A stretch of DNA of 64,000 nt from Desulfomicrobium macestii (lineage in GTDB: Bacteria; Desulfobacterota; Desulfovibrionia; Desulfovibrionales; Desulfomicrobiaceae), in NCBI RefSeq assembly GCF_014873765.1, contig NZ_JADBGG010000016.1, forward strand, positions 1-64,000. Direction: 5' to 3'. A program made the position numbers and the translations under genes. Under the pieces are notes generated by a model. That model saw nothing but the letters and a program-made list of their open reading frames with translations. It did not search any database and was not told where the DNA came from. Positions 1,909-37,159 of this stretch are shown here, piece by piece (position 1 is the stretch's first letter; every line of letters begins with the position of its first letter).

Positions 1909-2126
1909 TGATGAGCGAAAAAAATGCACGCCGGATCAAGGCGTGGATGACGCTGAACGGCGTCAGGCAAGCCGACATAGCCAAGGAAATGGGCCTGTCT
2001 AGGACGATGATTCAGCGCTTTATTACCGGTCACAGCACCAGCACCAGGGTGTACGAATATTTCATCAACCTTGGCTGCCCCAGGGAGTATTTTGTGGGTC
2101 GGACTGAAGCGCGGAGGGCTGCCTGA
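1905..2126 (+). CDS. small HTH (XRE/Ner-like) regulator
   Basis: 73 residues with a compact helix-turn-helix, VRQADIAKEMGLSRTMIQRFITG at about residues 20-42, of the XRE/Ner type. It overlaps the preceding stop (ATGATGATGA start) and its own stop overlaps the start of the transposase gene by one base, so it is translationally coupled to both. By size and place it is the best candidate for the Ner-like early regulator that shuts down repressor transcription in Mu; this role is inferred. Confidence 0.65.
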   Translation: MMMSEKNARRIKAWMTLNGVRQADIAKEMGLSRTMIQRFITGHSTSTRVYEYFINLGCPREYFVGRTEARRAA

Positions 2127-4204
2127 TGGCCAAAGTAGATCAGCCCATCAGTGAAAAAGAGGCACTCTCTGCCGCAGACATCGGGCAGATCCTGGGTTGC
2201 TCCAGGCAGGCTGTAGATAAGATGGCAAAAAAAGGAGGATGGCCGGCAATATGGGAAGGCAGGGCCAAGCTGTTTTCAGTCGCAGACCTCCCCGAGGACG
2301 TCCGCGTGGCCATCGCCACCAAGTCGTGCCCCTACACCCCGCCAGCCATCACCCCGGCCAAAGAAGCTGGCCTGGCCGATATTATGAAGCTGAAGGGCAA
2401 GAAAAAGATCAGGTTCACGACAAGGACTGCAATCATCTCCATTTACAAGGCGTTCTCGGCCAAGGCCAACCTTGCGGACACGCCATGCCGCGAGGCCTTC
2501 TGCGTCCGGTGGGCTGCTGGCGAGATTGAGGCGGAGGCCTGGCTGCGTGAGGAGCTCCCGAGTTTCAGTCCGAACTCTGTGAAGAACTGGCTGGAAACAG
2601 AGGAGAAAGAAGGTTCTGCTGCGCTTGGCGGGGACTTTGGCAAGCACCGCAAGGGCACGGGCATCATCGAAAGCACCCCCCTGATGCGCGAATCCATCCT
2701 GGGCATGATGGCCGAGCACCCCAACGCCTCGGCAGCGCTCATCCGCGAATGGCTTGAAGCAAAATTTCAGAAAGTCCCATCTTTGCGCCGCCTGCAGGCG
2801 TGGGTCAGCGCGTGGAAGAAGGCCAATCCGGGCAACTGGATGTACATCCAGGCCCCGGACAAGTGGCGGAGCCGCTTCATGGCCGCCTGTGGCGACAAAT
2901 ACGAGTTAATCGTGAGGCAAAATCAACTTTGGGAATATGACGGAACCCCAGCAGACATTATGCTCTCCGACGGTAAGCGGTATTCCATCATCGGCGTGAT
3001 CAACATCTTTGACCGCCGCCTGAAATTAGAAGTCGCTCCTTCTGAAAACTCGCGTGACGTGGGCGCGCTGAGCCGCCGCTGTATTTTGGACTGGGGCGTC
3101 CCAGAGGGAGTCACCACTGACAATGGCGGTTCATACGTTTCCGCATACCAGCAGCAAGTATTTGGTGCACTTGGCATTGTTCACACCATCCTGCCCCCGT
3201 TCCGGCCCGACTTAAAACCGGCCATCGAGCGCGCATTCCGCACCTTTTCACACCATCTTTTGACGATCTGCCCCGCATACGTGGGTCATAATGTGGCCAC
3301 ACGCCAGGAGATCCGCGAGCGCGAGACCTTCTCCAAGCGCCTCATGGACCGCAAGAACCCCCAGGAGTTGTCCATGGCCTTCTCGCCCCAGGAGCTGCAG
3401 GAATTCTGCAACGACTGGTGCCAAAACACCTATGCACATCGCCCCCATAGCGGCCTGAACGGGCGCACGCCCTGGGAGGTCGCCCAGGATTGGATCATGC
3501 CGGTCCGGCGGATCGAGAACGAACGCGCCCTGGACGTTCTGCTTGTGCCCCTGGCTAGCGGGGGCGGCTTCCGGGAAGTGGGCAAGAAAGGCCTGCGCTG
3601 CTCTTCTGGCGTCTATGTGGCTCCGGAGCTGGGCGGCCTGGTCGGCCACCGTGTTCAGGTCCGGATGGACCCTGCAAATCTGACCTGGGCGTATGTGTTC
3701 GACGATGACGGCAACTTTCTGTGTCGGGCAGAGCGGACCGATGACCTCAGTGCTGAACAGATGCGCGCAGAGGCCAAGGCCATGCGTCGGGTCAGCCAGG
3801 CAACGCCAAAGGCCATATCCAAGGAAATGCGCGCCATGGCCAAACTGACCGAGGCGGATCAGGCCATGCCCGTGATCCGCGAGCACCATCGCAAGCGGGC
3901 AGAGGCCATCCGCGCCAAGGGCGTCGACCAGCGCTCCACCGTCTACACCACCCCAGAACTCGAAGCCGCAGCCGATGCTGCGAACGCCCATATCCCCGCC
4001 GTCGCCGTCACCGAGCAGTCCCGGGAGATCGTCCCCGGCTTCACGCCCCCGGCGACTGCCCAGGAGCGCTACAAGCTGCTGCTGGCTCTCCAGGCGCGCG
4101 AGGATCTGACCGAAGCGGAGGCCAAGTGGGCCCGCATTTACGCGGCCTGCCTTGAGGCGGATGGTTTCCGTCGAATGTACCAGATCTGCGCGGCAACCGG
4201 TTAA
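2126..4204 (+). CDS. MuA-like DDE transposase
   Basis: 692 residues, close to Mu transposase A (663). The N-terminus (about 1-70) is a Mu-type winged-helix DNA-binding domain (ILGCSRQAVDKMAKKGGWPA). The RNase H-fold core has the catalytic triad D272 (WEYDGTP), D332 (TTDNGGSY) and E368 (KPAIERAF), spaced DD35E. A Mu beta-barrel-like domain and a charged C-terminal tail that would contact the MuB ATPase follow. It catalyses strand transfer for both integration and replication of the phage. All catalytic residues are present, so the gene looks intact. Confidence 0.95.
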   Translation: MAKVDQPISEKEALSAADIGQILGCSRQAVDKMAKKGGWPAIWEGRAKLFSVADLPEDVRVAIATKSCPYTPPAITPAKEAGLADIMKLKGKKKIRFTTRTAIISIYKAFSAKANLADTPCREAFCVRWAAGEIEAEAWLREELPSFSPNSVKNWLETEEKEGSAALGGDFGKHRKGTGIIESTPLMRESILGMMAEHPNASAALIREWLEAKFQKVPSLRRLQAWVSAWKKANPGNWMYIQAPDKWRSRFMAACGDKYELIVRQNQLWEYDGTPADIMLSDGKRYSIIGVINIFDRRLKLEVAPSENSRDVGALSRRCILDWGVPEGVTTDNGGSYVSAYQQQVFGALGIVHTILPPFRPDLKPAIERAFRTFSHHLLTICPAYVGHNVATRQEIRERETFSKRLMDRKNPQELSMAFSPQELQEFCNDWCQNTYAHRPHSGLNGRTPWEVAQDWIMPVRRIENERALDVLLVPLASGGGFREVGKKGLRCSSGVYVAPELGGLVGHRVQVRMDPANLTWAYVFDDDGNFLCRAERTDDLSAEQMRAEAKAMRRVSQATPKAISKEMRAMAKLTEADQAMPVIREHHRKRAEAIRAKGVDQRSTVYTTPELEAAADAANAHIPAVAVTEQSREIVPGFTPPATAQERYKLLLALQAREDLTEAEAKWARIYAACLEADGFRRMYQICAATG

Positions 4205-6815: not shown

Positions 6816-6995
6816 GTGGCGGCGAGGTCTCTCGCCGTCACGATCGGGCCAGCAGGCGGTGCCCCTGTCGGGACACATACACCTCGGCAACACCTGCAGC
6901 GCAGGCGGTCCCTCCTGGCCGTGACCGCGCCGTAGCACCCACGAGACGGGTGGCTGAATCAAGAGTGGCGGCGAACCATTGGGGTTCGTCGCCAC
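6816..6995 (+). ncRNA. multi-hairpin gene-free region, candidate phage RNA
   Basis: Between 6802 and 7020 there is no credible gene but several stems: GTGGCGGCGAG/CTCGCCGTCAC (6816-6826 with 6831-6841, loop GTCT), a CCTGC/GCAGG stem near 6894-6907, CACCC/GGGTG near 6937-6952, and GTGGCGGCGAACC/GGTTCGTCGCCAC (6965-6977 with 6983-6995). The first and last hairpins share the motif GAGTGGCGGCGA. No T run follows, so these are not ordinary terminators. An RNA or an mRNA-processing region is inferred. Confidence 0.35.
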
Positions 6996-7020
6996 CATCG
7001 AAACAGCGAGGAGGTTTTAA

Positions 7021-7257
7021 GTGGGCGGAACAGAAGCAATCACCAGGGCAAACACCCTAACGATCGACGAAGTGCCCCGCGCCTTCTGTAAGGAGTTCTG
7101 CGCTACGTGGATCGGGCGAAAGCTGCGAAACGGGCAGGATGAGAGCTGGTGCGGCAAGACAGTGTTCCCGCCCGCTGCGGACGGGAAGAGATACTGCGCA
7201 TGGGAATGGAAACGAATCAAGGAGAAGATGAGTCTATGTGCGAAGCTGAAGTCCTGA
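7021..7257 (+). CDS. small Cys-containing phage protein
   Basis: 78 residues from a GTG start at 7021, chosen because GAGGAGG lies nine bases upstream. Four cysteines are spread through the chain (FCKEFC, SWCGK, RYCAW), so a metal-binding fold is possible. It overlaps the next gene by 22 bases in another frame. No recognised family; position is in the accessory part of the Mu-like early region. Confidence 0.5.
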   Translation: MGGTEAITRANTLTIDEVPRAFCKEFCATWIGRKLRNGQDESWCGKTVFPPAADGKRYCAWEWKRIKEKMSLCAKLKS

Positions 7258-7481
7258 GCTGGCTACTCTCAGAAGTCGAACAGAAGTCAAAGGAGCATCT
7301 TGGCAACGTAAAGAGCGTTGTCCGCACCCTCCAACACCGCTGCAACTTCGAGGATCATTACGAGCAGGACCGCGCGGTGGATGCCGTTTTGGAGCTCGAA
7401 GGGTTCGGCGGTGATCTCATGGGTCTGGTTCGCGAAGCAAACCAGCGTTTAAAGGAAAGCAAAGGGCAGGTGGCTGCATGA
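7236..7481 (+). CDS. small hypothetical phage protein
   Basis: 81 residues from the ATG at 7236; an upstream in-frame ATG at 7206 would add ten residues. GGAG at 7221 is the only ribosome site in reach. The chain is predicted helical and acidic. The start lies inside the preceding gene and its stop overlaps the next start (ATGA). No family recognised. Confidence 0.5.
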   Translation: MCEAEVLSWLLSEVEQKSKEHLGNVKSVVRTLQHRCNFEDHYEQDRAVDAVLELEGFGGDLMGLVREANQRLKESKGQVAA

Positions 7482-7645
7482 CAACCGTACTGCTCAAAGT
7501 GTCAACGCTTGAAGCCGTTTCTGGAGACGAATTGACCAGGTACGTTCAGTATTTGGTCATGGGCGTCGAAGAGACCGAACACGACGAAGAGGCCTTTGCC
7601 CTTCTCGACGATGCGGCAATTCTCACGGTGGAGCGGGCAGAATGA
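7478..7645 (+). CDS. 55-residue hypothetical phage protein
   Basis: A short frame from the ATG at 7478, coupled to the preceding gene by an ATGA overlap and to the next gene in the same way at 7642. The product is acidic (EETEHDEEAFALLDDAA). Tight packing with overlapping starts and stops on both sides is the main support that it is translated. No family recognised. Confidence 0.5.
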   Translation: MTTVLLKVSTLEAVSGDELTRYVQYLVMGVEETEHDEEAFALLDDAAILTVERAE

Positions 7646-8049
7646 AGCGCGAAGATTGGAAGAAGATTGAAGACAGGCTGCGCTTTCCAGGTGCCAAGAT
7701 GTCCCTGCGTGTGGATGGCAGGGACGTGGACCTGGCAGTCCGTACTGACAAAATGAAGATGGTCATCCTGGTGTTTGTTGATGGCTGGGCGAAAGGTGCG
7801 TGGCTTGATGTCACGAAACCCTGCCCGGAACAGGCTTACATGAGGCGTCACGAACGCTATCTCTGGCCAAAAAAAGAGCGGGATGGCGCCGCGAAGTTCG
7901 CAAAGCGCTTCGGAAAGCGTGAAGCAAAGAAGTATCTCGGGGATATAGATAAAAAATTCGTGTGTTTTTATCCGTACTTCCCATCAGTTCGCGCCGTCCG
8001 CACTCACTACGAAAAGACCTTCAAGTCCATCGAGCTGGTGGAAGCATGA
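7642..8049 (+). CDS. hypothetical phage protein, basic
   Basis: 135 residues beginning MKREDWKKIEDRLRFPGAKM; beta-rich N-terminal half (VDGRDVDLAV, MKMVILVFVDGW) and a Lys/Arg-rich C-terminal half. It resembles hypothetical proteins seen in accessory early regions of many phages, but I cannot assign a function. Overlaps both neighbours by four bases. Confidence 0.55.
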   Translation: MKREDWKKIEDRLRFPGAKMSLRVDGRDVDLAVRTDKMKMVILVFVDGWAKGAWLDVTKPCPEQAYMRRHERYLWPKKERDGAAKFAKRFGKREAKKYLGDIDKKFVCFYPYFPSVRAVRTHYEKTFKSIELVEA

Positions 8050-8627
8050 AAGCCACCTGCCCAGTCTGCGGGGGTTACGGCCCCCTGGAATCCTTCCTGG
8101 TGGACGACGATGCCAAGCGGGCCGTGGTAGCCGTCGGCAAGCTGCCCGGCGACCTGCCGCGCCTTTGCTGGGCGTACCTCGGGATGTTCCGCAAGCCAGC
8201 GTCCACCAGGGTTCTGACATGGGAGCGCGTGGGCCGGATCGTGGCGGAGCTCGCCGACCTGGTGGCCGAAAAGGACATGAGCTGGAAGAGCCAGCGCGTG
8301 GTTCCGAGCCGCCCGGAGTTCTGGGCTCAGGGCATCCAGGCGATGCTGGACCGGGACGCTCAGGGCAAGCTGGAACGGCCGCTGGATGGCCACAACTATC
8401 TGCGCGCTGTTGTTTACGAGATCGCAGAGAAGGCTTGGCATCAGGGCAACGTGAAGAAGGAAAACGAAGCGAAATTCAGGCCCCAGGAGCCGCAACAGCG
8501 CCGCCGGGACCCGGAGCATGACGACAAGCCCATCGTGCCCTTGTCCGAAGGGATCAAGGGATGGCGGGAAAGGCTTGGCGTTAGCAAAAAAGAAGGAGGC
8601 GACAATGGCAGAGCTGATATTGACTGA
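8046..8627 (+). CDS. hypothetical phage protein with CxxC N-terminus
   Basis: 193 residues from the ATG at 8046 (ATGA coupling). The N-terminus KATCPVCGGYGP has a single CxxC knuckle. The middle contains WERVGRIVAELADLVAEKDM and RPLDGHNYLRAVVYEIAEKAW, mostly helical, and the C-terminus is charged. This arrangement is frequent in phage proteins of unknown role near replication genes. One dispersed GTTTACG motif lies at 8412. Confidence 0.6.
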   Translation: MKATCPVCGGYGPLESFLVDDDAKRAVVAVGKLPGDLPRLCWAYLGMFRKPASTRVLTWERVGRIVAELADLVAEKDMSWKSQRVVPSRPEFWAQGIQAMLDRDAQGKLERPLDGHNYLRAVVYEIAEKAWHQGNVKKENEAKFRPQEPQQRRRDPEHDDKPIVPLSEGIKGWRERLGVSKKEGGDNGRADID

Positions 8628-8895
8628 CGAAGAGAAGGCAGCTGCTCTGTGGAGCGATCTTGATGATGCGGCGATCGGCAAGTTGGTGAAAAAGAGTATT
8701 GCGACGATTAGCACAGCTGCAGAACAGGCGGATCGTATCGTGATACAGGCGGCTGCGCTGTTAATCTGCTGCTGGGCACATGAGTGCAACGCCACCGACG
8801 TGAAGTTTGAGCTGGGCGGCGTTACGCAGGCAGGCCGTGATTTTGGGGATTGGGCCGTCGTTGTCACCAAAACACGTCAAGGAGAACAGCGATGA
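8605..8895 (+). CDS. small hypothetical phage protein
   Basis: 96 residues starting at 8605, chosen because AAGGAGG ends six bases before the ATG; the frame is open further upstream but that part overlaps the preceding gene. Predicted helical, with ILICCWAHECN in the middle. No family recognised. Confidence 0.6.
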   Translation: MAELILTDEEKAAALWSDLDDAAIGKLVKKSIATISTAAEQADRIVIQAAALLICCWAHECNATDVKFELGGVTQAGRDFGDWAVVVTKTRQGEQR

Positions 8896-9329
8896 ACACA
8901 ACCGACATGATCAACCACATCCGCGCCAACAAGCAACCCCTTAGCCAGCGTGTGCTGCAAGCCATTGCAGACCGTCTTGAAGAGCAGGATGCCTATCTTC
9001 GGTCAGCTCTTGGCACCTTGTCGACTCAGGAAGAGCAGCTTCGTGGCCTCGGGTCCGAGTTGGCCGAAAGCGAGCGCCACCGGCAGATCCTCACGACGCA
9101 GAACAAGGAACTGCTGGATGCGCGCAAGAATCTGGAAGCATTGGAAGCGGCGCTGGCCCCACTCCTGGCATGGGATAATGCTGAGCGCCGGACTTCAATC
9201 ATCATGGGGCCTGCCGAGCCCATGCTTGAAAGCCTTGGCTGCACTGTCGTGGCGGAAGACTTTGACCGCATCAGGGAGATTCTTTCGCACTATCGTGACG
9301 CCCATGCCGTGGAGTGTCGGCAGGCATGA
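8892..9329 (+). CDS. coiled-coil phage protein
   Basis: 145 residues from the ATG at 8892, with GGAGAACAGCG upstream. Residues about 28-90 form a long predicted coiled coil (LEEQDAYLRSALGTLSTQEE, then ELAESERHRQILTTQNKELL). Function unknown. Coupled to both neighbours by ATGA overlaps. Confidence 0.55.
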   Translation: MNTTDMINHIRANKQPLSQRVLQAIADRLEEQDAYLRSALGTLSTQEEQLRGLGSELAESERHRQILTTQNKELLDARKNLEALEAALAPLLAWDNAERRTSIIMGPAEPMLESLGCTVVAEDFDRIREILSHYRDAHAVECRQA

Positions 9330-9867: not shown

Positions 9868-10658
9868 ACTGGAGAATTGTACCCTGGAACCCCAAGTACA
9901 AGCTGAGCGACACGGGGCGGATGATGGGGCCAATGGGCCTGTGCAAGCCATGGATCGGATCCGGCCTGCCGAGGGCGGCCAAGTACACGCTGTCCGGCAC
10001 GGGCGCGATTACCGTGCAGAGGGCGATGCTCAAGGTGTGGGACATCTCCCTGGAGCCGACGCGGGAATGGATCGTTGCGGTTTGCGCTGACGTCCGGGCG
10101 GACAAGGAAGAGCGCCGCGCCGCCGCGCGCCGGGCCGAAAAAGAGCGCCGCCAGGCGGGCGCGCCCAAGCCCGCCCCTGTGGCTGTCCCGTCGGTCGAGG
10201 AGTGGCGCGCGCTCCCGCAGGACGCACGCTATGAGCTCTCGAATCACGGGCGGCTTCGTGGCCCCAGGGGGCTGCGCAAGCCGTGCATTCCCGGTGGAAA
10301 GAACCCGTATTCCGCCCTCTACCCGGTCAGGCTCAAGAACGAAAACAGGATTACGGCCCTGATCATCAGGGTGGCGATGCTGCAGGTCTGGGGCGTCGAG
10401 CTCGTGCCGACTGGCGAGCTTATCTCCAGGTTCCGGGCTGAGGCCGAGGCGGAGAAGAAACTCAAGTGCCGCCCGAAGCTGAGGCTGGTCGAGCCGAAGA
10501 AGAAGGACACGGCGGCGAACAGAAACGTCCGCCACTGCGCGGACTGTGGCCGGGCCCTTTCTCCCGGGTACTGGAGGCGCTGCCCCGAGTGCTGGACAGC
10601 GGTCCGCAAGGGCCTGGATACGCCCCTTGAGGAGTACGGGACGGCAAGTAGAAGATGA
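9864..10658 (+). CDS. tandem NUMOD4-like protein with zinc ribbon
   Basis: 264 residues from a GTG start at 9864 with AGGAGG upstream. Two copies of a NUMOD4-like motif are visible: residues 3-60 (WRIVPWNPKYKLSDTGRMMG) and about 113-175 (EEWRALPQDARYELSNHGRL), each followed by a conserved ALIIRVAMLQVW-type helix. NUMOD4 is a DNA-binding module of HNH homing endonucleases. A C-terminal zinc ribbon (CADCGRAL ... CPECW) follows. No HNH or GIY-YIG nuclease motif is present, so this looks like a DNA-binding protein, not an enzyme. The linker between the modules is Arg/Ala-rich. Confidence 0.6.
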   Translation: MNWRIVPWNPKYKLSDTGRMMGPMGLCKPWIGSGLPRAAKYTLSGTGAITVQRAMLKVWDISLEPTREWIVAVCADVRADKEERRAAARRAEKERRQAGAPKPAPVAVPSVEEWRALPQDARYELSNHGRLRGPRGLRKPCIPGGKNPYSALYPVRLKNENRITALIIRVAMLQVWGVELVPTGELISRFRAEAEAEKKLKCRPKLRLVEPKKKDTAANRNVRHCADCGRALSPGYWRRCPECWTAVRKGLDTPLEEYGTASRR

Positions 10659-10726
10659 GCGAAACCTCCTGCGGGAGGTCGTCCGGGCGTGGCGGCCCGG
10701 GCCTGATGAGCAGCCGAGGAGTCAAG

Positions 10727-34062: not shown

Positions 34063-35109
34063 ATGGCAGCGGGAGATTTGTTCATCATCCCGGCCCAGGC
34101 GGCCGGTTTTTTTAGCTTGCTGGGGTCTATTTCCAAGGAGCCAGGCGGCGAAGTGCTTTCGCTCCCCGAGGGGATGGTCAATATCGGCGGCAACGGCAAA
34201 GGGTATCTCTTGCGTCAGGCTCTGGGGTGGGATCCGCTTGCCGAGGGCAACAACGACGGGTCCTTTTCGAGCCTCACGCTTGGAGACGACATCTATATAT
34301 ATGCCGTTCCAGATCCAAGCGGCGTTGCGGCGTGGCTGGCGTCCAAGAATTCAACGTATCCGGTCGGGCAGTCTGCTGAGACTAGCCGCAAGGTCGGCGG
34401 GTTCCACGTCGGCCGGGTGCGCGGCATCGCCTACAGGTACAATACGACATACGTCCCGCCTGTCGGCATCGTACCGAATTCGTGCTGGGACTTACACCAT
34501 CGTCCGTCCTGCGACCCGTCGGGCATGGTGGAAGTTGTCCCTGGCCGCCTCTGGGTGGATATCTATTTGAACTCGGAAGGGCCTGGGACCTGGCCGGAGA
34601 ATATTCCCGTGAGCAGATATGGGGCCGCGCTGATCCGTGACAACATTTACAGCCGGTCCGACTTCCACCAGCTGATCAGCAACGCGGGCAAGCGCCTCCC
34701 GACGGTGGAAGAGTTTCTGCGCTACGCAGAGGGAGCGCCTCAGGGCTCGAATTCGAGCAATGACACGGCCTGGGGGCATCCGAGTAACACGGGCCCGGCG
34801 CTCGCTGGGGCGGTGGCCAAGGCTGTTAGCCAGTATAATGTCGTGGACGCTGCGGGGAATCTCTGGGAATGGCTCGATGATCACTATGATATTGGCGGAA
34901 CATGGGCATGGAGCGCTGCGGTCGTAAACGTCGGCCAGGACGCCGCTATTCCGCGCGGTAGCGTGAACCACGCTTCCTGGCGTGCGTTCGCTGGCGGGGG
35001 CCATTGGAGCATCGGCGTGTACTGCGGCGCGCGTTGTCTCGACACGTATGCGTATCCGTGGGCTGCGGGTGGCGTTGTCGGCCTGCGCGGCGTCTGTGAC
35101 TCCCTGTGA
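34063..35109 (+). CDS. receptor-binding protein, C-type-lectin/FGE fold, DGR-target-like
   Basis: 348 residues. The C-terminal half has the formylglycine-generating-enzyme/C-type-lectin fold signature: RLPTVEEFLRYAEGAPQG, VVDAAGNLWEWLDDH, then SWRAFAGGGHW ... YCGARCLDTYAYPW ... GLRGVCDSL. This is the layout of Mtd-like variable tail proteins diversified by DGRs, with the variable region at the extreme C-terminus. The end (about residues 303-348) is rich in residues that can derive from mutated AAY codons (Y, H, D, G, A, V). It would be the tip adhesin of the prophage. Confidence 0.8.
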   Translation: MAAGDLFIIPAQAAGFFSLLGSISKEPGGEVLSLPEGMVNIGGNGKGYLLRQALGWDPLAEGNNDGSFSSLTLGDDIYIYAVPDPSGVAAWLASKNSTYPVGQSAETSRKVGGFHVGRVRGIAYRYNTTYVPPVGIVPNSCWDLHHRPSCDPSGMVEVVPGRLWVDIYLNSEGPGTWPENIPVSRYGAALIRDNIYSRSDFHQLISNAGKRLPTVEEFLRYAEGAPQGSNSSNDTAWGHPSNTGPALAGAVAKAVSQYNVVDAAGNLWEWLDDHYDIGGTWAWSAAVVNVGQDAAIPRGSVNHASWRAFAGGGHWSIGVYCGARCLDTYAYPWAAGGVVGLRGVCDSL

Positions 35110-35126
35110 TCCAGAACCCTGATCTT

Positions 35127-35144
35127 GCCCCGCGACAGCGGGGC
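35127..35144 (+). promoter_or_regulatory. GC-rich hairpin after variable gene, DGR-like
   Basis: GCCCCGC-GACA-GCGGGGC is a perfect 7-bp stem with a GACA loop, 17 bases after the stop codon. Hairpins of 7-10 GC pairs with a GRNA loop just after the variable region are needed for retrohoming in known phage DGRs. There is no T run, so it is a poor terminator. Confidence 0.5.
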
Positions 35145-35224
35145 TTGTTAACGCGGGTACAATCAGGAGAATTTTGCTCCAAAATGGGGTGTTTACGAGA
35201 CGAGGAATTGATGGTGTCGGGCAG

Positions 35225-35306
35225 AGCCTCGGTTAACAAAATGAGGCCAGTTTTAAAATTCAAAACTAAGCGTCACTTGGACCAAAACTAAATGGCGCGT
35301 TACACA
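35225..35306. other. probable right end of the Mu-like prophage
   Basis: Read inward on the minus strand from 35306, the sequence starts TGTGTAACGCGCC and contains three loosely repeated blocks (CCATTTAGTTTTGG, GCTTAGTTTTGAA, CCTCATTTTGTTAA), as expected for transposase binding sites behind a TG terminus. Phage genes stop at 35109 and the last GTTTACG is at 35191, so the end must be close. Exact end uncertain by some bases. Confidence 0.45.
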
Positions 35307-35670: not shown

Positions 35671-35985
35671 ATGAACATACTCAGTCGGAAAACTCTAAAT
35701 TGCTACTGCGAGAAATATGCAGGAGCGAGAGGAAGCCTTCTGGCTTGGTATGATCTGGTTTCGAAGAAACGGTACGCGAATCACGCAAAGTTGAAGGAAG
35801 ATTTCCCCAGCGCCGACCATATCGGTGGAAGCAGGTATATTTTCAACATTAAAGGAAACAATTTCAGGCTTATAGCCTGGATTCGATTTGAAGCTGGCCA
35901 AGTGTATGTAAAATGGTTTGGAACCCACGCCGAATACGACAAAATAAAGGCAGCAGAGGTGACGTATGATGATCCGTGCCATTAA
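35671..35985 (+). CDS. higB: HigB-type mRNA interferase toxin
   Basis: 104 residues. The sequence (LAWYDLVSKKRYANHAKLKE, SRYIFNIKGNNFRLIAWIRF, YVKWFGTHAEYDKI) matches the HigB_toxin family of RelE-like mRNA interferases. The ATG lies only seven bases after the -10 box and has no ribosome site, so the message is probably leaderless. The antitoxin gene overlaps its 3' end by 20 bases, giving the toxin-first order typical of hig modules. Confidence 0.9.
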   Translation: MNILSRKTLNCYCEKYAGARGSLLAWYDLVSKKRYANHAKLKEDFPSADHIGGSRYIFNIKGNNFRLIAWIRFEAGQVYVKWFGTHAEYDKIKAAEVTYDDPCH

Positions 35986-37159
35986 GACAGATGCCGACTA
36001 CGAAGCGGCGCTGGCTCGGGTCGAAAAAATTTTCGACTCGGAGCAAGGCAGCCCTGAGTTTGATGAACTGGAGGTTTGGGGGACTCTCATAGGCGCATAT
36101 GAAGATGAGAATCATCCTGTACCGCCGCCTACTCCGCTTGAAGCTATCGAATTTGTCATGGACCAGAAAGGGCTTAAGCAGAAAGATCTTATCCCCTTTA
36201 TTGGATCGAAAAGCAAAGTATCCGAAGTGCTTGCCGGCAAAAGAAAGCTGACTCTAAAAATGATCCGCTCGCTTCACAAAGGCTTAGGCATCCCAGCAGA
36301 CACCCTCCTGAAGGAGCCTGGCAAAAAGTTGCCCGAGGGTTTGGCAGATGTTGACTGGAGTCAGTTTCCTATCAAGGAGATGACCAATCGCGGCTGGATT
36401 GAAGATACCAAAGACTTCACGGATAGAGCCGAGGAAGTTGTCCGCAATCTCATGGTACAGGTGGGTCAACCCGATTGCCTGCCTACGGCGTGTTATCGAT
36501 GCGGAATTTCCAGAACTGCAAAGGATATCGACATGTACGCTGTCCAGGCCTGGCTATTGGGTGTCCAACTCAAGGCGCAGCGCATCGAAACAACGGGTAC
36601 TTACGATCGCAATCTAGATGAGACATTTCTAAGTCGTCTGGCAAGGCTGAGTATATTTAGCGATGGACCTATGAAGGCCGTTGAGTACCTCAGCTCAAAA
36701 GGGATCAAACTGGTTATTGAACCACACTTCTCCCATACCAAGCTGGACGGCGCTGCCATTCTTCAATCCGGCATACCGATTGTCGCACTGACGTTGCGGT
36801 ACGACAGGATTGATTATTATTGGTTCACATTGCTCCATGAATGTGCCCATGTCATCAAGCATCTTTCAGAAGATAACAGCCTCATTCTCGATGATCTTGA
36901 ATCTCAAACAGTTGATATAAGAGAACATGAAGCTAATATTCTTGCAAGAGATGCCGTTGTTCCAATTGAAATATGGAAAAGTTCCAAAATCACAAATGTA
37001 CAACACCCCAACAAGGAGCACGTCACTGACTTGGCAAGCAAAATGGAAGTTCATCCTGCGTTGATCGCAGGGCGTGTTCGATATGAAAGAAATCGATACG
37101 ATATTCTTTCAGGGCTTGTTGGACACCGAGAGGTACGGAAATTTTTTCTCGAAAAATGA
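35966..37159 (+). CDS. higA: HigA antitoxin fused to ImmA/IrrE-type metallopeptidase
   Basis: 397 residues. Residues about 1-120 are a HigA-like antitoxin with an XRE helix-turn-helix (LKQKDLIPFIGSKSKVSEVL). The rest is an ImmA/IrrE-like zinc peptidase with the HECAH motif (H291-E292 ... H295) inside YYWFTLLHECAHVIKHL and a downstream EHEANILARD acid motif. Such peptidases cleave cognate repressors, so toxin neutraliser and potential self-cleaving switch are in one chain. Start at 35966 or the next ATG at 35969. Confidence 0.88.
   Translation: MMIRAIKTDADYEAALARVEKIFDSEQGSPEFDELEVWGTLIGAYEDENHPVPPPTPLEAIEFVMDQKGLKQKDLIPFIGSKSKVSEVLAGKRKLTLKMIRSLHKGLGIPADTLLKEPGKKLPEGLADVDWSQFPIKEMTNRGWIEDTKDFTDRAEEVVRNLMVQVGQPDCLPTACYRCGISRTAKDIDMYAVQAWLLGVQLKAQRIETTGTYDRNLDETFLSRLARLSIFSDGPMKAVEYLSSKGIKLVIEPHFSHTKLDGAAILQSGIPIVALTLRYDRIDYYWFTLLHECAHVIKHLSEDNSLILDDLESQTVDIREHEANILARDAVVPIEIWKSSKITNVQHPNKEHVTDLASKMEVHPALIAGRVRYERNRYDILSGLVGHREVRKFFLEK

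Follow-up and report, generated by a model that had tools for sequence, protein, structure and literature searches.

The closest described systems to the locus analysed here are the Mtd/avd/TR/brt DGR of the Bordetella phage BPP-1 and a group of Mu-like phages that includes Chromohalobacter phage YPCBV-1 (OP380511) and relatives from Halomonas and Halothiobacillus. In phage DGR targets the variable repeat (VR) is followed, 4–34 bp downstream, by a hairpin with a GC-rich stem of 7–10 bp and a 4-nt GRNA loop (Guo et al. 2011, PMC3240598). Targets that have outlived their machinery are also on record: leftover targets with an adenine imprint and no reverse transcriptase (RT) or template repeat (TR) in Treponema denticola (PMC4891356) and nanoarchaea (PMC4372165), and incomplete cassettes in crAss-like phages (PMC11054128), where they are common (in one genus, 66 of 91 genomes have them; PMC7290462).

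The 64,000-nucleotide stretch of Desulfomicrobium macestii DNA studied here (the window) holds a Mu-like prophage that shares with BPP-1 an Mtd fold, a C-terminal VR with RGVCD, an IMH, a GRNA hairpin shortly downstream and avd as the next gene (Table 1). Unlike in BPP-1, avd is truncated, TR and RT are absent and the phage is Mu-like; the two adhesins are 32% identical over 80% of the protein, and a 7-bp stem with a GACA loop replaces the 8-bp stem and GAAA loop of BPP-1. With YPCBV-1 and the Halomonas/Halothiobacillus phages the locus has in common the baseplate genes, mtd as the last gene before avd, an avd beginning M..NPD.APRQRGL and the right-end sequence GCGCGC/TTACA, whereas those phages retain an intact avd–TR–RT between mtd and the right end. 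The adhesin is, very probably, a frozen former DGR target: an internal deletion of ~1.6 kb took out the TR and RT and all but the first codons of avd.

Table 1 Features of the prophage and its former DGR target region
Feature	Position in window	Strand	Description
Mu-type transposase A	2126–4204	+	rve + Mu-transpos_C
mtd-family tail adhesin gene, very probably a former DGR target	34063–35109	+	348 aa + stop
VR, as aligned to relatives' TRs	34977–35100	+	true 5′ limit needs own TR
Adenine-derived VR codons	35002, 35041, 35047, 35053, 35062, 35068, 35074	+	AAY in most TRs
IMH-like 3′ end of VR	35080–35100	+	GGCCTGCGCGGCGTCTGTGAC; common to relatives' VR and TR
avd stub, first ~15 codons	35106–35150	+	MIQNPDLAPRQRGL..., in frame; overlaps mtd stop
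Hairpin, perfect 7-bp stem with GACA (GRNA) loop	35127–35144	+	GCCCCGC-GACA-GCGGGGC
Deletion scar, ~100 bp	35151–35249	+	between avd stub and phage terminus
Right terminus of Mu-like phage	35250–35304	+	...CCAAAACTAAATGGCGCGTTACA; presumed transposase-binding end

An Mtd-type adhesin in a Mu-like prophage

The final tail gene of the prophage, whose stop codon occupies 35107–35109, matches Pfam mtd_2nd (the second Mtd domain; E 8.6e-20), with a sub-threshold FGE-sulfatase (C-type-lectin-like) stretch in the same search, and PHROG 11262 'tail protein' (E 2.2e-52). A 27-member profile of the adhesin retrieves solved Mtd structures from the PDB (E 9e-30) and nothing else but one weak EgtB match. 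The AlphaFold model (mean pLDDT 84, pTM 0.85; much of the VR part at ~58–73) has variants of BPP-1 Mtd as its top five Foldseek matches in the PDB (1yu0-4, TM ~0.7). Domain architecture and predicted fold, with a C-type-lectin C-terminus, are those of Mtd, and these Pfam, PHROG, profile and Foldseek matches uphold the lectin-fold tail protein suggested in an earlier note on this DNA. Judged from sequence and model, the product is a receptor-binding, Mtd-type tail protein of C-type-lectin fold. No second Mtd was found in the 4.5-Mb draft genome, and no related adhesin in the other genomes of the genus among those searched.

The prophage encodes a MuA-type transposase, an AAA ATPase partner and GemA, which together with a conserved right end identify a Mu-like transposable phage. 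The right terminus of the phage group is fixed by two contigs of one phage (L016 and L036), since these are identical from mtd to ...GCGGCGCGCTACA (...GCGCGCTACA) and diverge from the next base. The window's counterpart, ATGGCGCGTTACA, lies in a context similar to that of the relatives and ends at 35304, 160 bp past the hairpin, matching the roughly 160 bp that had been proposed to remain before the prophage end; it is presumably bound by the transposase. The window lacks the left terminus, since its contig starts within an IS21-like element, and pattern searches placed the left phage end nowhere. Positions 1–443, beside the left side of the prophage, read as an IS21-family istA end with TGGTCAGTTT repeats, a family assignment made from the sequence and without a database match. 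A type II hammerhead ribozyme (Rfam RF02276, 70 bits) lies at 10657–10719, at the start of gemA; YPCBV-1 too has a hammerhead ribozyme, upstream of gemA (L077, 7490–7554). Just beyond the phage end, at 35671–37159, a HigB-type toxin gene is followed by an HTH/M78-peptidase antitoxin-like gene.

Templates of relatives reveal an adenine imprint

Among public genomes and viral contigs, 49 loci with an adhesin relative were retrieved, a count that includes the prophage of the window itself; a search of a phage collection yielded YPCBV-1 and BPP-1. T7 records matching Mtd were rejected as natural relatives, being an engineered T7–BPP-1 chimera. The order mtd–VR–hairpin–avd–TR–RT is found in ~21 distinct Mu-like phages or contigs, some of these contigs being near-copies of one another. 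The relatives are 60–70% identical to the window adhesin, and their TR and VR agree at 81–92% of positions, with mismatches mainly at TR adenines.

One of these relatives carries a different published annotation: ORF53 of YPCBV-1 (L063, 3004–4053) has been described as an auxiliary metabolic gene for a SUMF1/EgtB non-heme iron enzyme (PMC9769972). Because it is an Mtd adhesin relative whose VR/TR mismatches are concentrated at adenine (15 of 17), its sequence makes it most likely a DGR target, not a metabolic gene.

With its own TR lost, the window VR was measured against the TRs of relatives. Relative to a consensus of 17 TRs over 124 aligned positions, it is mismatched at 14 of the 19 adenines and at 21 of the remaining 105 bases (p = 9e-6); comparison with each single TR gives p of 6e-4 or less, these tests being non-independent because the TRs are related. 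The gene upstream of the VR serves as control and displays no adenine bias (odds ratios 0.8–1.45; codon alignment with 11 relatives). Most TRs have an AAY codon at seven positions, and the window has a different codon at every one of them (CAT, GAC, TAT, TAT, GCT, GGT and GTT, in the order of Table 1), and each keeps a pyrimidine third base, the frequency of which across the adhesin gene is 0.58. An adenine imprint confined in this way, without bias in the upstream control, argues that a DGR once wrote the VR; with the TRs of relatives as substitutes for the lost template, the adhesin gene can be recognized as a former target. By analogy with BPP-1 (PMC3240598), the 3′ end of the VR would serve as the IMH.

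The hairpin lies inside an avd stub

The hairpin starts 17 nt past the adhesin stop and 26 nt past GTGAC, the last VR/IMH-like bases, and no other perfect 7-bp stem closed by a GRNA loop occurs on the two strands of the 64 kb. It has the perfect GC stem, GACA loop and 17-base spacing that had been read from the sequence at the outset, and an IMH-like VR end followed by a GRNA hairpin at this distance agrees with the published anatomy of phage DGR targets (PMC3240598). In the window, as in the nearer relatives, the hairpin is also the part of avd that codes for APRQRG; in this Mu-like phage family the homing hairpin and the 5′ coding end of avd are thus one stretch of DNA. A GC hairpin past a gene can also be a terminator, and one could suppose that no DGR ever acted on the lectin gene, its lectin segment and hairpin being chance or a plain terminator. 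This has hardly any chance of being right: the stem is followed by no T-run, the site is the only one of its kind in the window, the VR bears the adenine imprint, and the hairpin's position inside an avd stub, just where relatives have theirs, refutes the idea. A terminator was rejected on the same two grounds, the missing T-run and the position inside avd.

Nearly all DGR-bearing relatives have a GRNA hairpin past mtd, as do the window and, with 5 bp, Zobellella; the remaining DGR-less relatives lack one. Because the window has kept a hairpin that most DGR-less relatives lack, its sequence fits a comparatively recent loss of the DGR.

A probable internal deletion that spared the phage end

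The avd stub reads MIQNPDLAPRQRGL in the window against MSMNPDGAPRQRGL in YPCBV-1 and sits exactly at the position of the relatives' avd–TR–RT. Only ~15 codons of the full avd gene remain, and nucleotide homology to relatives stops at about 35141–35153. From mtd to the right end there are 198 bp in the window against 1,778–1,827 bp in seven relatives; since this distance is shortened with the end intact, the loss was internal, spared the terminus and amounts to a net ~1.6 kb. The scar (35151–35249) resembles nothing in the avd–TR–RT region of relatives and recurs nowhere else in the genome. GTTAAC occurs near both of its sides, at 35147 and about 35232. This stretch of ~100 bp tempers the case for a simple two-point deletion; a single deletion event may account for the loss. 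We reconstruct the event from relatives of 60–70% identity, as the searches turned up no sister strain that still has the whole cassette.

In the proposed course of events, the adhesin would once have been diversified by a phage-encoded DGR in the order mtd(VR)–avd–TR–RT, the cassette ending a few tens of bases before the phage right end. A deletion of ~1.6 kb, from about codon 15 of avd to just inside that end, would then have taken avd, TR and RT together, leaving an intact adhesin with the last VR to be written, the IMH, the GRNA hairpin and the phage terminus.

No resident machinery found to act in trans

The draft genome (4.5 Mb, 99 contigs, completeness 99.99%) yields the same two RT genes, of 462 and 471 aa, in an RVT_1 search and with a profile of 11 DGR RTs; both read from their sequence as group II intron type. 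No DGR RT and no TR were found in the window, as the earlier note had stated, or in the draft genome, which elsewhere matches the VR region over 23 bp at best. A single-sequence search, run without a positive control, found no other copy of Avd in the draft genome, and the 23S_rRNA_IVP family, a possible Avd-like model, gave two sub-threshold matches on other contigs.

These searches bear on whether a DGR located elsewhere in this genome continues to diversify the VR in trans, which the earlier note had offered as its alternative to cassette loss. The intact VR, IMH and hairpin would permit this, and remote DGR targets are known (PMC4891356); with nothing but intron-type RTs returned by the DGR profile, and no Avd or TR near-copy in the draft genome, action by a resident DGR is without support and very improbable. 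A DGR in an unassembled piece keeps a slight chance, given the 99-contig draft and a contig that starts inside an IS21-like element. The note had counted the absence of a near-copy of the VR against its reading; no near-copy was found, but the TRs of relatives reveal the former target. The note's orphan target holds up, and of its two alternatives the lost cassette is the supported one, through the avd stub, the imprint and the empty genome search.

A DGR-bearing phage related to this one could instead share the cell and occasionally rewrite the target, the hairpin and IMH being kept for that purpose. The target-site anatomy equals that of DGR-bearing relatives, a plasmid-borne avd–TR–brt donor from BPP-1 acts on a separate target (PMC3240598), and a reconstituted DGR does so in E. 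coli (PMC12875486). We nevertheless consider such a helper improbable: none was found in this genome, the genus genomes searched hold no related adhesin, the hairpin may persist merely through recent loss, and its absence from most other DGR-less relatives does not suggest general upkeep. That a DGR-less landing site is a working strategy, with an adhesin that is mostly stable and rewritten in trans when a DGR-bearing relative is co-resident, is likewise unlikely.

Missing or broken DGRs in related phages

Returning to the former-target reading, other relatives likewise lack a DGR or carry a broken one. In Marinobacter X15-166B (L017; a 3.48-Mb scaffold), no DGR RT was found in the genome searched. 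Zobellella denitrificans (L015) has an avd stub ending in a stop, and its genome contains no DGR RT and one 487-aa RT with an intron-type-like score. A tandem target duplication considered for this locus was not found, an unrelated ORF lying past the stub. A 43-kb viral contig (L020) carries two tandem mtd copies (6890–9068) and no RT; both VRs bear the adenine imprint, and compared with the TR of its neighbour or relative L021, these copies differ at 15 and 17 of 27 adenines and at 15 and 13 of 117 other positions. Within the host family of the window, a further genome (G018; L090, 5784–6300) has mtd followed by the C-terminal part of a DGR RT only, avd and TR being gone, and represents a second, different DGR deletion.

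An adhesin tree computed without the VR implies about six changes between DGR-bearing and DGR-less states, three or four of them required by well supported branches; the count is rough, several DGR-less rows being fragments. The window is not firmly placed in the mtd tree. DGR-bearing and DGR-less lineages are interleaved within this Mu-like phage family.

Like the leftover loci of T. denticola, nanoarchaea and crAss-like phages, the window retains a target and VR without RT and/or TR. Those cases involve other hosts and other target families, and the window differs from them in that the loss lies beside the end of a transposable phage and has left an avd stub that holds the hairpin. Because leftover DGR targets were already reported, the window adds one more, well-resolved instance to a phenomenon already known; the mechanism too is known, and what is added is a Mu-like case with stub, target site and terminus together. 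With target, hairpin, first avd codons and terminus all in place, the deletion can be sized, at ~1.6 kb, against seven relatives, and DGR loss can be read here with unusual clarity. The adhesin would now be changeable by ordinary mutation or recombination alone, and its remaining target site would still accept cDNA given a matching DGR. Since DGR-bearing and DGR-less lineages are interleaved in this family, the question of when a tropism mutator is worth keeping becomes open to comparison.
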